28,285 nucleotides of DNA from a virus: positions 1-28,285 of the IMG/VR virus record IMGVR_UViG_3300031379_000016; one strand, written 5' to 3'. Shown piece by piece: positions 8,099 to 28,285 of the stretch (the first letter of the stretch is position 1; every line of letters starts with the position of its first letter). A model generated the notes under the pieces. That model saw only the letters and a program-made list of their open reading frames with translations. It had not been told where the DNA came from and searched no databases. A program made the translations under genes and the position numbers.

Positions 8099-8129
8099 GA
8101 ACGTATTATACCCGATAATATCATCGATT

Positions 8130-8465
8130 TCAAGTAGAATCTTTGTTTTTCTCAGCAATATGCTGTAAAAAAGCTTGATCCATCATCCGTATATGATAGT
8201 GCAGATCCTCGGCTTCATCCTCAGTTAACTCCAGGCGGAAGCAATATTCATCAATACTCCATGAGGGAATAGGCCCAGGAGACCAACCAGTCGACCGGCA
8301 TGTATTCAGCTCAATGAACGCATCAAAATGAAGCTCCAAACCCATGAGTAGGTTTGGAGCATTCTGTATACGTTCAGGGAGTGGGCGTTTTCTACGGAAG
8401 CACTCCTGGATCATTCGCTGTTCCATTTTGCCTAACTCCAAATAGTAGAGCAGGCAGGCAATCAG
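8130..8465 (-). CDS. Tail assembly chaperone, -1 frame extension (T-like)
   Basis: This frame is open from upstream of the stop of the first chaperone gene and continues for 111 residues (LIACLLYYLELGKMEQRM..., ending EKNKDST). It reads as genuine protein sequence across the region upstream of its first ATG, which fits expression as a C-terminal extension of the preceding gene after a -1 ribosomal frameshift. The fusion product would be about 255 residues. This is the G/GT arrangement of siphovirus tail assembly chaperones: the short protein and the long fusion bind the tape measure and recruit tail-tube subunits. An internal ATG (the M of GKMEQ) could also start a free product, but no strong ribosome binding site is seen. 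Confidence 0.82.
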   Translation of the reverse strand: MIACLLYYLELGKMEQRMIQECFRRKRPLPERIQNAPNLLMGLELHFDAFIELNTCRSTGWSPGPIPSWSIDEYCFRLELTEDEAEDLHYHIRMMDQAFLQHIAEKNKDST

Positions 8466-14624: not shown

Positions 14625-14653
14625 ATTATAATATTATCGGACTCAGAAGTCAA
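14625..14653 (-). promoter_or_regulatory. Consensus promoter for the capsid gene with embedded TTATCGGAC site
   Basis: On the minus strand TTGACT (14,648-14,653) and TATAAT (14,625-14,630) are 17 bases apart. The expected transcript start is near 14,618, giving a leader of about 95 bases to the capsid ATG. The spacer holds AGTCCGATAA, the motif repeated at the right end of the window, and the region is flanked by an inverted repeat (see separate entry). Confidence 0.85.
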
Positions 14654-16975: not shown

Positions 16976-19900
16976 TTACCAAGTCCTTTGAATAATAGTA
17001 CGTCTTGTCCATCTAAACCGATACCGCCACATGTCACCAGCATGATCCTCAACATCTGAGTTGACATCATCTAAATTTTTATCATCACGTGGCAAACATG
17101 GAACTGTTCGCCGAGAATCTGTACAGCGTTCACATATAAATAAACCTTTATTCTCTCTTACCCCAGCTACTGGAATACTTCCAGATAATAACGTTCTAAT
17201 TTGTTGCCATCCCTGCACACGTGAGCCTTTGGATTTATCTACATCGTCCCAATACACACCTTCTTTTTTCATGTCACCAGCTACGGTCTTCAACCCATCG
17301 TATTTTGAAAAGATCGAAGAATCCGCTGGGCCACGCTTGATTCGTCCACGCAAACCCATTTCTTTTTCTTTTTCTTTGATCTGACGAGCAATAGCCTGGG
17401 CGGTCATGTTGAGACCTTTATTATCCTCGTTAGCACAACCATAATATTCATCGAAAAGAAATATATCACCCTTTACTTGGCCATACTCTTTGTTAAATAA
17501 CGTAATTGGATTGCCATTACTCTCAGCCCACCATCCGACTGAAAATGGTTTTGATAATCCGTGGTCGTAAGCACGATTCATAAACCAACCTGATTTCCTA
17601 AGTAGGATATATGGGATATTTGGAATAACATGGATTTTCTCATTCCAAATATCATCAAACATTCCACCAGACGTAATATCCCAAGAGCCTTCGATCCATG
17701 CAGCCAATTCCGCAGGATTACGGGCGGCAGCTCGTAGAGTATTAACATAACTTGGATCAGCCAGGAGTAAAATCTTATTCTCAGCCAATGAGCTACGAAT
17801 TGCAACTCGCGGCTTGTCAAGCTCATCCGCAGGAACGTCGCGAGTATCTCTAATGACAGTACCGAGAAGCATTCCATCAGCCATCGGTAATTTGAATCTC
17901 TTTTTAACCCAGTTATGCCCAGGGCCGTAAGGATTTGTGGTCGCTCGGACTCGGCAGAGCTTGGCTACTTGTGGGTGTGCAGATCTGCACAACGAAAAAA
18001 GTGGTGTATAACATTCACTATTAGGCCAAGTAGTCAATTCTTCAAATCCTATCCACGGATAAGAGTTGCCTGATACCCATACGGAACCTTGCTGCCGGAT
18101 CACAAACATGTGATGCTTTTCAAGTCCGATGCAATAAACCTTGCCTTTATGGTGTTCGCGTTGGACTTGAATCTTAGCTGACAGCGGTTTACCTCTTTTC
18201 CAACGCACATCAGTGCGTAGCTTTATGTCACGCCGCTTGCTTCCACGACAAGTGATAGTATATGATAGGCCCTCACGACTGTCACGCTGTCTTGAGCTGA
18301 CGTATACCTTATATCCAAGCTTGACTGCTATCTCAGCCATGTCGTCCGCCAATTGTTTTGAGGTCGTGAAGTAATACGCGTTATCTTTCTGCCATGACCC
18401 ATCACCCGCCATTGCTGCGTTGAAGAATAATCTAAGTTGCCTGGCGTTCATGTTCTTAATGATCTCTGGTACAAATTTGTCACGGCACTTGCCGAAAGGT
18501 CTTAGATATGTCCACCAATCTATACTGCTAAAGATAAATCCAGTTTTATTGCTTCCAAACTCAATACCCATCCGCAGCAGAAGGTCGGCAATCCAGGTTC
18601 TATTTTTCTTTTTTTGCTGACCTACTCCTACTTGAAGATTAGAGGTGACAGTTGACCCCTCGGATAAAAACCAGCCCATAAACTCGGCGAAGTCATCACC
18701 GGTGACAGTGAGGGGTTGATTCTTATATTTGGTGGTATATCTTGGATTTCTTAGTGCTTGTGGAATATCTACCTGCTCAACATGTGCTCCACCGCGGTAA
18801 TTTACATTAGCTGCTATTATTACCTCATGGCCCAAGGAATTGTATTTTGTGGGTTTGAGCGTACCATCATCCTGCACGACCGCAACTTTGTGGTTGGGGG
18901 TGAATTCCATAAATGATCCACGGCCTTCGTGAACAACTAAATCACCATCATAATCCTCTTCGGTCTTGGTCGCCACAGGCATAGGTATGAGGTCTCTATT
19001 TTCATCTACAGCGTACACAATGTCACCTACTTTAATGTTCTTGATGTCTCTCCAACCTGTTGGCGTAAGTACATCACCATTTTTGAGACAGTGGCCATGA
19101 TAATTCCAATATTCTGACGGACGCATTATATGACGAAACTTTAATGTTTCGCCTGTAGCCCATGTCCATGTTTTAGCTTGTTTATTATAATCAGCGTTCG
19201 GCCAAATCTTCTTGAACCATTTTAATGACTTACTAATAATGTCATCAAGCTCAGGAAAGGTTCGCCGAAACAAAATTCCCTTCCACTCTTCACCAAAACC
19301 ACGGCCAACATATTGTGCAAAGTCCATCAGCAGTACGTCGGTATTGTGGGTGACAACAAAACCATCAATAACGAAAAGTTTTCTTGGGTGCTTGACTGCA
19401 AAACATGTAGCGTCACCAGTGCCACATGGTTCTATACTCTTAATCGCTCTATATTGATATTTATGGGTAACAGTCATTTTACTCAACTTACGTTTTAGTG
19501 TAAAAGGCTTCAAGACATTTCTGTGGGATATATTTACTCGCCAAATTGGTTTAGACCACTCAGATTTTACTCCAGATAATTTTTTCGATTTATTTTTTAA
19601 TGATCTTGGTGCGGAATAGTGTTTTTGAGCCAGTCCGCCCAAAGAGCGGATGAGGTATACATAGTCATTTGCCATTCTTTCTGAAATAGTGCAAGCAGTG
19701 ATTCTACCCTCTCTATCACATGAGCCGTCTGCATCCATCATTCCTTGAAGAAGTCTCAATCGAGTATGCGGATCAGCTTCAAGCAATTCTTGGGGGACAT
19801 GTTTATCTTCTTTAGAAACTCGGCCAAGAATATCTTTATATTGTGGATCACCGTAAAGGTACATCTGCCACAGCTTAGGTGATTTTTTCTTATACCGATT

Positions 19901-20512
19901 ATCCTTCCATCCAGCAGCCTTCAAATACTCTATAATTTCCGGTTCAGTATTATATATAGTAATGTGATCTCCAGTTAGCGTTCCGTCACCTAATATAAGG
20001 CCAAGTATATAGGGGTCTGGGCCAATCCATTTTTTTCCTGGGACAGGTTTTTCAATAACTGGAATAGACCAAACCTGAGTGCTTTCAACTATCTCTTTAG
20101 TGGTTTTTATCTGATTGGGTTCATCTTTACAGGCTTTTTGTGATCTCACTTCCCAGAGATGTTCGGCGTCCACAATAATCTCTACCCCATCGCAAAAAGT
20201 TAATCTATATAGCTCTTTTTTTCCTTGTGGAAAAATTCCGAGGATTTCCGTAAATGTTCCATCAATAGCCACAAGTTTATCTGCCATAACAACGTCACCT
20301 ACTTGTTTCCAGCCTGAGTCAGATAGAATACGCTCACCATTACTTAAAGCCTTCCCACCCCCTCGGTTGCCTGCCAGTAGAGTTTCAAAGATCGGACATC
20401 GTAAGAATGCTTCCTGACTTCCAGGTTGAGGAAACCAGATCGCCGGAGTACCGTCAATGAATGCGGTTAGCTCACCTGTTTCATTAAGTCGCCATTCAAC
20501 TTTTTGACTCAT
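16976..20512 (-). CDS. terL: Terminase large subunit precursor with two inteins
   Basis: A single 1178-codon frame encodes a TerL of 500 residues once two inteins (336 and 342 residues) are removed. Extein landmarks are: Walker A LLAGNRGGGK at 45-54 with its T at 391 after the first intein; RRTFPELDDII; the region YWNYHGH (468-474) joined to SYPWIGFEEL (817-826), which holds the Walker B acidic pair E824/E825; the coupling motif RATTNPYGPGH; and the RNase H-like nuclease with D983 (AYDHG), D1021 (FLFDEYYG) and the DVEDHAGDMWRY segment at 1153-1164. TerL pumps DNA through the portal and cuts concatemers. Its ATG overlaps the stop of the preceding gene (ATGA). Without splicing neither the P-loop nor the Walker B region would be contiguous, so splicing is required for packaging. 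Confidence 0.95.
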   Translation of the reverse strand: MSQKVEWRLNETGELTAFIDGTPAIWFPQPGSQEAFLRCPIFETLLAGNRGGGKALSNGERILSDSGWKQVGDVVMADKLVAIDGTFTEILGIFPQGKKELYRLTFCDGVEIIVDAEHLWEVRSQKACKDEPNQIKTTKEIVESTQVWSIPVIEKPVPGKKWIGPDPYILGLILGDGTLTGDHITIYNTEPEIIEYLKAAGWKDNRYKKKSPKLWQMYLYGDPQYKDILGRVSKEDKHVPQELLEADPHTRLRLLQGMMDADGSCDREGRITACTISERMANDYVYLIRSLGGLAQKHYSAPRSLKNKSKKLSGVKSEWSKPIWRVNISHRNVLKPFTLKRKLSKMTVTHKYQYRAIKSIEPCGTGDATCFAVKHPRKLFVIDGFVVTHNTDVLLMDFAQYVGRGFGEEWKGILFRRTFPELDDIISKSLKWFKKIWPNADYNKQAKTWTWATGETLKFRHIMRPSEYWNYHGHCLKNGDVLTPTGWRDIKNIKVGDIVYAVDENRDLIPMPVATKTEEDYDGDLVVHEGRGSFMEFTPNHKVAVVQDDGTLKPTKYNSLGHEVIIAANVNYRGGAHVEQVDIPQALRNPRYTTKYKNQPLTVTGDDFAEFMGWFLSEGSTVTSNLQVGVGQQKKKNRTWIADLLLRMGIEFGSNKTGFIFSSIDWWTYLRPFGKCRDKFVPEIIKNMNARQLRLFFNAAMAGDGSWQKDNAYYFTTSKQLADDMAEIAVKLGYKVYVSSRQRDSREGLSYTITCRGSKRRDIKLRTDVRWKRGKPLSAKIQVQREHHKGKVYCIGLEKHHMFVIRQQGSVWVSGNSYPWIGFEELTTWPNSECYTPLFSLCRSAHPQVAKLCRVRATTNPYGPGHNWVKKRFKLPMADGMLLGTVIRDTRDVPADELDKPRVAIRSSLAENKILLLADPSYVNTLRAAARNPAELAAWIEGSWDITSGGMFDDIWNEKIHVIPNIPYILLRKSGWFMNRAYDHGLSKPFSVGWWAESNGNPITLFNKEYGQVKGDIFLFDEYYGCANEDNKGLNMTAQAIARQIKEKEKEMGLRGRIKRGPADSSIFSKYDGLKTVAGDMKKEGVYWDDVDKSKGSRVQGWQQIRTLLSGSIPVAGVRENKGLFICERCTDSRRTVPCLPRDDKNLDDVNSDVEDHAGDMWRYRFRWTRRTIIQRTW
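18065..19090 (-). other. TerL intein 2 with LAGLIDADG endonuclease
   Basis: This covers TerL residues 475-816. It starts at Cys475 (CLKNGDVLTPTGWRDI, block A), has the block B T538-P-N-H541, block F GKVYCIGLEKHHMFVI, and ends SGN816 before Ser817. A class 1 mechanism (Cys1, Asn, +1 Ser) is indicated, but the residue before the terminal Asn is Gly rather than the usual His. Two LAGLIDADG-like motifs (EFMGWFLSEG at 610-619; FFNAAMAGDG at 696-705) with acidic residues E618 and D704 suggest a homing endonuclease. Insertion is a few residues before the Walker B strand. Confidence 0.93.
19343..20350 (-). other. TerL intein 1, class 3 type, in Walker A, with LAGLIDADG endonuclease
   Basis: This covers TerL residues 55-390, inserted between Lys54 and Thr391 of GNRGGGK-T. 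It begins with Ala55 (ALSNGERILSDSGWKQVGD), which cannot act as the usual first nucleophile. Block B reads VDAEHLW with Trp120, block F reads ATCFAV with Cys370, and it ends VVTHN390 followed by Thr391. Trp-Cys-Thr at these sites is the diagnostic WCT set of class 3 inteins, in which the block F Cys starts splicing. LAGLIDADG-like motifs lie at YILGLILGDG (168-177, D176) and LQGMMDADG (255-263, D262), so the homing endonuclease looks intact. Confidence 0.95.
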
Positions 20513-21316: not shown

Positions 21317-21345
21317 ATTATAGGACATTATGTCCTGGAAGTCAA
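21317..21345 (-). promoter_or_regulatory. terS promoter with palindromic operator in the spacer
   Basis: TTGACT (21,340-21,345) and TATAAT (21,317-21,322) are separated by 17 bases. The spacer is largely filled by AGGACATTATGTCCT (21,322-21,336), arms of 7 bp around one base. The predicted start of transcription, near 21,310, is only about three bases before the ATG at 21,307. The palindrome is a likely repressor or activator site. Confidence 0.82.
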
Positions 21346-26818: not shown

Positions 26819-26847
26819 ATTGTAGCAAATTGATTCATCTGTGTCAA
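26819..26847 (-). promoter_or_regulatory. Promoter for the accessory operon
   Basis: TTGACA (26,842-26,847) and TACAAT (26,819-26,824), 17-base spacer, minus strand. The -35 overlaps the end of the small gene at 26,844-27,002. The predicted start near 26,812 gives a leader of about 47 bases to the ATG at 26,765. Confidence 0.85.
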
Positions 26848-27002
26848 GTAGTATCTGGTGGATTAGGTAAATCTTCTATGTAGTCCGATAATGTAGCGTC
26901 TAAGTGATCTTCGCTTAGTGGGTCATCAGCATATTTTCCTTGATCCCAACCAATCTTTTTTACCTGTTCGTCAGTTAATTCGATTGAAGTTAGTATTCTC
27001 AT
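26844..27002 (-). CDS. Small acidic protein, 52 residues
   Basis: ATG (27,000-27,002) with an excellent AGGAGAA ribosome binding site five bases away leads into a 52-residue protein: MRILTSIELTDEQVKKIGWD, then QGKYADDPLSEDHLDATLSD and a proline-rich end. It is acidic and helix-like at the start. It is preceded by a consensus promoter at 27.06 kb. Codons for TLSD carry the sequence AGTCCGATAA on the plus strand, a copy of the motif repeated at the right end. The family is not recognised, and the ORF is too short to rule out other roles. Confidence 0.66.
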   Translation of the reverse strand: MRILTSIELTDEQVKKIGWDQGKYADDPLSEDHLDATLSDYIEDLPNPPDTT

Positions 27003-27057
27003 TGCATTCTCCTACATAGTGACATTGCTTGACTTCTTACTCTCATCCCATATACCT
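27003..27057 (-). other. 5' leader between promoter and 52-residue gene
   Basis: About 50 bases separate the predicted start (near 27,051) from the ATG. The leader ends in the strong ribosome binding site. No hairpin of note. Confidence 0.5.
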
Positions 27058-27086
27058 ATTGTAGCAGATCATTTTTTGATTGTCAA
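27058..27086 (-). promoter_or_regulatory. Strong promoter with A-rich upstream region
   Basis: TTGACA (27,081-27,086) and TACAAT (27,058-27,063), 17-base spacer, minus strand. Upstream on the same strand an A-rich tract (runs of 5 and 7 A) resembles an UP element. It serves the small gene at 27,002 and possibly the rest of the accessory row. Confidence 0.87.
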
Positions 27087-27539
27087 GACTCTTTTTTTAT
27101 TTTTGAATTTTGAAATTTCAGATGCCCATCGATCCGTGACGTGTGCGGGGTAAGGGGGCATTCATTATCAGTGGGGGAAAGGCCCCATGTTATCGGACGT
27201 AGTCATGGCATTGTGTTATCGGACGTAGCTCCGCTGCTCCAGGTTATCGGACGTTCGGATTCTCGTTTCGCGAATGTTCTTGACATGGACGCAGCCGCCA
27301 GTTATCGGACGTTAACTACTACGTCCTATAATAGCAGCGATAACGCTTTATTATTTCGCGGTTTTTATCGGACGTGTCCAATAACATCTACCATACTGAG
27401 CCAGGAGCGTCGATCTTTTCGGACGTGACCAATAATATCAACGTCCGCTTTCGTTCACATAGTCCGATAACGTGACGGTCGATACAAAGAAAGGCGTCCG
27501 ATAATGCGGGCAACATTATCGGACGATGGGATATGAAAA
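27087..27539. other. Long non-coding stretch carrying the motif array
   Basis: No convincing gene on either strand in about 450 bases. The longest frame (27,141-27,428, plus strand) merely reads through the motif repeats. The region holds ten or more of the 11-bp motif copies, in both orientations around 27,461-27,504, plus a run of G-rich and C-rich sequence at 27,145-27,187. Its position before an accessory operon, A-rich promoter and lack of genes fit a replication origin, partition or control region. Confidence 0.6.
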
Positions 27540-27560
27540 TCGCGGCGGGTGAAGCCGCGA
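27528..27560 (-). terminator. Rho-independent terminator of the 164-residue gene
   Basis: Arms TCGCGGC and GCCGCGA (7 bp, 27,540-27,560) with a seven-base loop, followed on the minus strand by TTTTCAT. It begins 17 bases past the stop codon at 27,577. It closes the right-hand transcription unit before the array DNA. Confidence 0.68.
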
Positions 27561-27576
27561 GGTAGGTTATCGGACG

Positions 27577-28071
27577 TTAGCTATATTTCTCCTCATTGAT
27601 TTTCGCGGCAGTTTTGTTATCGGACGTCGTCTTGTCAATTAGTTGTTCGTCGGTCATCTCCAGGTTATCGGACGAATATCCGCACTTCGAGCAAACTTTA
27701 TCGGACGTAATCAGCTCACTTAACTTAATAACTTTATCAGACGTCTGCTCAAATTTGGCGTCTTGTACATAATCAATTCTCATAACGTCGGCCAATTGTA
27801 ATTCGCTGCCAATATACGCGGCATGTTCAAGAGATATATCAAAGCCGGAATTGGGCCAATTTACGCGGCTTATTTTGTGTATATATCGCATAGAATGTTT
27901 TCGGACGTTCTCGGCGGTTCCACAAAACGATTGTATCGGCTCATGTTTACGGCTCATAAAATCAAGCCGGACGGATTCCGTCTTGACGTCCCAGTATATC
28001 AGAACATAAATTCCAGTATCGTCCGGCTTATATTCTGTATTATCGACTCTATTGATTTTCCAATTTTCCAT
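27577..28071 (-). CDS. Protein of unknown function with motif-encoded TSD(K/N) repeats
   Basis: A 164-residue protein (MENWKINRVDNTEYKPDD) with a beta-rich N-terminal domain (IYVLIYWDVKTESVRLDF and VRKHSMRYIHKISRVNW) and a tail from about residue 105 on. The tail contains TSDK (110-113), TSDK (122-125), SSDN (133-136) and TSDN (149-152), each encoded by a copy of the ACGTCCGATAA motif in the same reading frame, plus a CSKCG pair that could bind metal. A strong GGGGGG ribosome binding site lies before the ATG. No known family. The repeated residues look like a by-product of DNA-level motif spread or selection. Confidence 0.7.
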   Translation of the reverse strand: MENWKINRVDNTEYKPDDTGIYVLIYWDVKTESVRLDFMSRKHEPIQSFCGTAENVRKHSMRYIHKISRVNWPNSGFDISLEHAAYIGSELQLADVMRIDYVQDAKFEQTSDKVIKLSELITSDKVCSKCGYSSDNLEMTDEQLIDKTTSDNKTAAKINEEKYS

Positions 28072-28165
28072 TTTACCCCCCTGTAATTGCTATTCTGTTT
28101 TCCGTTTATTAACTGCCTTTTGCCGTCAATCCATAGACGACAATCGGCAAATAATAAACGGGGGT
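28072..28165 (-). other. Short intergenic leader, inverted repeat
   Basis: Ninety-four bases between two genes. AATAAAC and GTTTATT (28,153-28,170) form a 7-bp inverted repeat around GGGG, overlapping the upstream stop codon; it may act as a weak terminator. A TTGACG lies near 28,110 without a good -10, so no promoter can be assigned. Confidence 0.4.
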
Positions 28166-28285
28166 TTATTTCGTTAACAATAAAAGACAATCGACGTCGG
28201 CTTTAGCCGTCGCGACGTCTGGAAAATCGCCGAGAAAGTTATCGGACGCGTCCCATAACTTGACGTTTCCAATTCCGACGTCGAT
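28166..28285 (-). CDS. C-terminal end of a gene cut by the window edge
   Basis: The last 39 codons of a minus-strand frame ending TAA at 28,166-28,168: IDVGIGNVKLWDASDNF, then LGDFPDVATAKADVDC and LLLLTK. The ASDN here is again encoded by the 11-bp motif in the same frame as in the neighbouring gene. Too short to identify; the start lies beyond the window. Coding character is fair: the frame is open and its composition looks like protein. Confidence 0.5.
   Translation of the reverse strand: MDVGIGNVKLWDASDNFLGDFPDVATAKADVDCLLLLTK

Follow-up and report, generated by a model that had tools for sequence, protein, structure and literature searches.

Iteron origins carry dense initiator sites next to an AT-rich stretch, and their initiators often repress promoters too. 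DnaA also regulates promoters. Stoperators comprise 20 to 30 sites that are dispersed over the genome along the direction of transcription (PMC6550527). In cluster A mycobacteriophages, a monomeric repressor reads an asymmetric site (PMC9283540). Here we describe a dense array of a short asymmetric motif in a window of 28,285 nt, the whole stretch of DNA that was analysed, which corresponds to positions 1 to 28,285 of the IMG/VR virus record IMGVR_UViG_3300031379_000016. A first-pass annotation had likened this array to stoperators and had proposed replication iterons or partition sites as alternatives. The window encodes the structural half of a siphovirus, with tape measure, tail tube, major head protein, scaffold, portal and terminase. 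Its portal shares 48% identity with the counterparts in cultured phages of Pseudomonas and Bordetella. One of these, Bordetella phage CN2, is assigned to the Mesyanzhinovviridae. The ORF of the terminase large subunit (16976-20512, minus strand, 1,178 aa) matches the LAGLIDADG_3, Hom_end and Hint domains, which suggests that this ORF may contain one or more inteins; terminases of relatives have about 500 aa.

With up to two mismatches allowed, TTATCGGACGT matched the window 22 times, compared with 5.8 ± 2.5 times in dinucleotide shuffles, and none of 100 shuffles gave 22 matches. Eighteen of the 22 matches lie in a single region of about 1 kb, and eight of these eighteen are exact 11-mers. The core TTATCGGAC has 15 exact copies in the window, of which 13 fall within 27,190-28,247; beyond the array it occurs in the 28 kb only at 14,634 (+) and 26,883 (−). 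The features of this region are as follows.

27190..28258, no strand assigned: dense array of 18 TTATCGGACGT copies (up to two mismatches) and 13 exact copies of the core, reaching the contig end
26883..26891, minus strand: isolated core copy inside the small ORF 26,844-27,002
27577..28071, minus strand: gene of 164 aa with a weak match to PterinBD-DUF4346, holding several array sites

The shuffled controls thus bear out the dense 11-bp array of the first-pass annotation, which was also right about the core copies at 14.63 and 26.88 kb and about the predominance of one orientation. Most array copies have TTATCGGAC on the plus strand and hence read GTCCGATAA on the strand that is sense for the leftward genes; the exceptions are at 27,321 (a copy with one mismatch, TTATAGGAC), 27,462, 27,496 and 28,248. 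A TTATAGGAC copy at 21,318 and an inverted TTATCGGG at 8.1 kb had been overlooked. Comparison of copies inside and outside clusters reduced the conserved core to 9 bp, R-TTATNGGAC, with the consensus R-TTAT(C>A,G)GGAC. The site is asymmetric and not palindromic, and no dyad was found in its core or flanks. The array sites within the 164-aa gene share one frame and are read as Ser-Asp-Asn; the array of a relative (G038) also holds a 164-aa gene with the same weak PterinBD-DUF4346 match, whose sites likewise share one frame and encode Ser-Asp-Asn. The contig of the window ends inside the array, and in relatives the array region runs on for several kb and includes a second cluster. A tRNA scan and an Rfam scan of the window gave no matches.

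Two single copies of the site and one inverted near-copy are associated with promoters.

14625..14653, minus strand: capsid-gene promoter, TTGACT-17-TATAAT, with GTCCGATAA in the spacer
14634..14642, plus strand: operator-like TTATCGGAC copy in the capsid promoter spacer
21317..21345, minus strand: terminase-operon promoter, TTGACT-17-TATAAT; GTCC abuts the −10, and GTCC plus TATAA makes up the site
8105..8133, minus strand: promoter near the tail tape-measure region, TTGAAA-17-TATAAT, with the inverted near-copy TTATCGGG directly before the −10

The capsid and terminase promoters are near-consensus sigma-70 promoters. In the capsid promoter, GTCCGATAA lies between the −35 and the −10 in the window and in six aligned relatives, collected via the portal gene; G011 and G020 have the same arrangement. 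The TTATAGGAC copy at 21,318 overlies the −10 of the terminase promoter, where GTCC is invariant in five distinct genomes and the remaining spacer has diverged. Both sites are kept in all relatives whose records include these promoters, and G011 also has a tape-measure-region promoter with an inverted near-copy beside its −10. The site was absent from the other strong promoters of these genomes, which we take to be early. This overlap is the pattern that a protein blocking RNA polymerase at late promoters would be predicted to give, and a putative control of late promoters via the copies at 14.63 and 21.32 kb is well supported by conservation.

We scanned viral contigs for two close copies of the word and then counted all copies. 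This analysis revealed that many IMG/VR phages, with GC contents of 33-65%, have dense and irregularly spaced arrays of the same word. A typical carrier contig has one dense irregular cluster and almost no copies outside it. Three close copies in the same orientation were observed in 63 stretches; with the reversed and a scrambled word as controls, 11 and 4 stretches were obtained, respectively. The carriers include siphoviruses like the window phage, podovirus-like phages, a group of large phages, and others.

G000, G001, G003, G005, G011, G020, G038: the window's family
G007, G012, G016: podovirus-like phages, by their terminase
G002, G004, G006, G008, G009: large-phage group
G435, G436, G439, G440: later additions, with the array pattern of the large-phage group

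As the phages were collected by the motif itself, arrays of three or four copies in single lineages may be due to chance, and the argument is built on records with at least eight sites. The contigs are metagenomic and several genomes are fragments. Orientation within the window's family is mixed, with 22 copies versus 22 in G001 and 13 versus 11 in G003. In the cultured kin PaMx11, CN2 and Pam3, no 9-mer was clustered like the array word in the stretches examined. The search for cultured relatives of the other phage groups gave distant matches only, which did not reveal a host, and the literature matches listed for the motif appear to be primers or otherwise unrelated sequences. In another phage group (L017:6115-6204, L064, L066, L083, L085, L087, L092, L033 and L321), a very long ORF is preceded by four conserved copies, a single inverted one and three in direct orientation.

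The position of the arrays was compared with cumulative GC skew. Of the 16 phages compared that do not belong to the window's family, 13 have their detrended minimum no more than 1 kb from the array, compared with a chance expectation of 1.24 of 16, and none of 100,000 simulations reached 13; G016 was excluded from this count because it has genes identical to those of G007, and the independent count is slightly lower since G435 seems to be of the same lineage as G002 (60 sites, same arrangement). GC skew is indirect evidence for an origin, and divergence of gene strands alone could cause part of the signal. The minimum was not at the array in G012, G437 and G438. In the large genomes G002, G004, G008, G439 and G440, and also in G007, the skew maximum lies 0.43-0.49 genome lengths from the minimum, as expected of bidirectional replication of a circle. 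The arrays of the large-phage group lie mainly to one side of the minimum, and TTATNGGAC is mostly directed away from it (for instance 22 of 23, 32 of 38 and 27 of 31 copies), an arrangement consistent with directional boxes at an origin. Given this coincidence with the skew minimum, the array is a probable replication origin. In the window's family, where nearly all genes are transcribed in one direction, no skew minimum or switch was found at the array; the case for an origin there thus comes from an AT-rich neighbour and from the parallel with the other groups.

27056..27116, no strand assigned: AT-rich stretch flanking the array (78% A+T), candidate DNA-unwinding element
L277:17689-17835, L289:9862-9996 and L257:14927-15063: GGTGGGTTG repeats beside the second array cluster

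The AT-rich stretch of the window ranked third among 57 bins of 500 bp. The AT-richest 60 bp of the genome adjoin the array in G003, G005 and G038, whereas in G001 and G011 up to about 400 bp separate the two; in the large-phage group an AT-rich neighbour is not clear. Between the AT-rich stretch and the second site cluster, genomes of the window's family carry GGTGGGTTG repeats, in helical steps of 11, 21 and 31 bp in G005 and G011 and with looser spacing in G001 and G003. A conserved gene of this family also contains the GGTGGGTTG repeat at 21-bp intervals, and about 17 copies of another repeat, GGCAGCCGAC, adjoin the array in G011 and G020 (L289:13843-14363). The iteron alternative of the first-pass annotation gains from the skew minimum in other lineages and from the AT-rich neighbour in the window's family, and loses from the irregular spacing of the sites and from their mixed orientation in that family.

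We think it fairly likely, on balance, that the array forms the part of a phage replication origin to which the initiator binds, and that the same protein represses late promoters until the arrays titrate it. From the arrangement of the sites we infer initiator binding, repression and titration. The many 9-bp asymmetric TTATNGGAC boxes would be bound by an initiator-type protein, and the bound initiator would melt the adjoining AT-rich stretch, so that replication could start. In the window's family, the same protein may occupy the single copies in the strong sigma-70 late promoters (terminase, capsid, probably tail) and hold these promoters off. As replication multiplies the arrays, the protein would be drawn away and the late promoters would fire. 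The number of boxes, up to about 60 over 5 kb, counts against the origin reading; to our knowledge, known origins use fewer.

Searches for the binding protein covered the phage records. No protein family common to all phage groups was found, profile searches included. A DnaA domain (Bac_DnaA_C, domain IV) was found above the cut-off in none of 48 phage records, with three weak matches only. Pfam scans of the uncharacterised proteins of the window's family gave a single Fis-like HTH protein (551 aa), whose blastp homologues were confined to G001 and G038. The predicted structure of a conserved origin-side gene (alignment A3) had a pLDDT of 41, too low to be informative. Since the phage groups have no gene family in common, the binding protein is more likely encoded by the host than by the phage, with the incomplete contigs leaving room for a phage protein. 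It is a tentative idea that several unrelated phage lineages recruit one host initiator via TTATNGGAC and that one lineage ties its terminase and capsid promoters to titration; we know of no studied DnaA that uses this box word.

The word was also sought in bacterial genomes. A host regulon in Planctomycetota was rejected: the count of 79 for GTCCGATAA as opposed to 0 for the reversed word in some genomes is an artefact of a depleted control word, and a seventh-order Markov model removes the enrichment (14 seen versus 8.7 expected in 400 kb of G200). Most matches of a first scan of genome contigs were likewise discarded as chance pairs or tandem repeats. The sampled Planctomycetota genomes had no triple cluster but one, on a planctomycete contig (L218:7380-7433), where three GTCCGATAA copies lie just downstream of a tRNA-like sequence and before an ORF; these are perhaps the sites of an integrated or integrating element. 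The Blastocatellia genome G043 (L223:3760-3877) contains 137 copies of TTATCGGAC versus 15 of the reversed word, many of them paired in inverted orientation at distances of about 40-140 bp, which seems to be a repeat family of its own.

No integrase was found in the records of the window's family, and no repressor common to the phage groups. Both results count against a different reading, in which a repressor of phage immunity or of late genes uses the sites as operators and stoperators, and the array serves as a repressor sink or silencer that lies near the origin only incidentally. Overlap with two or three late promoters speaks for such a repressor, and a monomeric repressor on an asymmetric site has its precedent in cluster A mycobacteriophages (PMC9283540). 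Few sites lie outside the arrays, however, their orientation is mixed in the window's family, and in phages in which no promoter sites were seen, the arrays follow the GC-skew minimum; we consider this reading unlikely. The stoperator analogy itself fails for the array because each genome has its sites concentrated in a single region, not dispersed along transcription, and because their orientation is mixed in the window's family. What stands of the earlier comparison is its promoter part, with the conserved, promoter-overlapping copies at 14.63 and 21.32 kb.

A centromere-like partition site near the origin (parS or ParR-type repeats) is considerably less probable still. Centromeres are commonly located close to origins, some of them consist of arrayed short direct repeats, and a tyrosine recombinase is encoded in three records, but ParB_N was detected in only two of 28 records at E 0.01 (one over the cut-off), the site is not palindromic, unlike parS, and maintenance as a plasmid is not expected of podovirus-like and Mesyanzhinovviridae-like phages. 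The partition sites suggested earlier are thus unlikely. That the array acts as RNA, its repeated GGA motifs soaking up a CsrA-like protein, is hardly credible: UUAUCGGAC includes the GGA core and is mostly on the sense strand of array ORFs in the large-phage group, but both orientations occur in the window's family, the window has no Rfam match, and the promoter copies are fixed relative to the −35 and −10, which is a constraint on DNA.

Returning to the origin reading, one 9-bp word marks a probable origin in at least three phage groups without a common gene family. The box word may thus help to locate phage origins in sequence data, and it points to an initiator of different DNA specificity. 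If titration is true, it would explain how late genes with ordinary sigma-70 promoters could be timed to replication.

Among known systems, the stoperators and operators of cluster A phages (L5 Rep) resemble the sites described here in being asymmetric and, in some cases, located within promoters (PMC9283540, PMC6550527). They differ in that they are 13-14 bp long, dispersed and aligned with transcription, whereas the phage boxes are 9 bp long, confined to one region and mixed in orientation in the window's family. The array shares with the iteron origins of plasmids and phages the dense sites beside an AT-rich stretch, whereas iterons are usually longer and regular direct repeats; the GGTGGGTTG repeats with their 11, 21 and 31-bp steps resemble true iterons more than the array itself does. 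Like oriC, the arrays outside the window's family are clustered at the GC-skew minimum, and those within the family have an AT-rich neighbour (G001, G003, G005, G011 and G038); they contain 10-60 boxes compared with about ten in oriC, in phage genomes that encode no DnaA domain above the cut-off. The core is TTATNGGAC and not the DnaA box TTATNCACA. Both are 9-bp asymmetric boxes of the form T-T-A-T-N plus four specific bases, with a tolerant fifth position, a layout that we read as a resemblance and not as proof of kinship. The last four bases are GGAC here and CACA in the DnaA box, whereas the first five positions agree.
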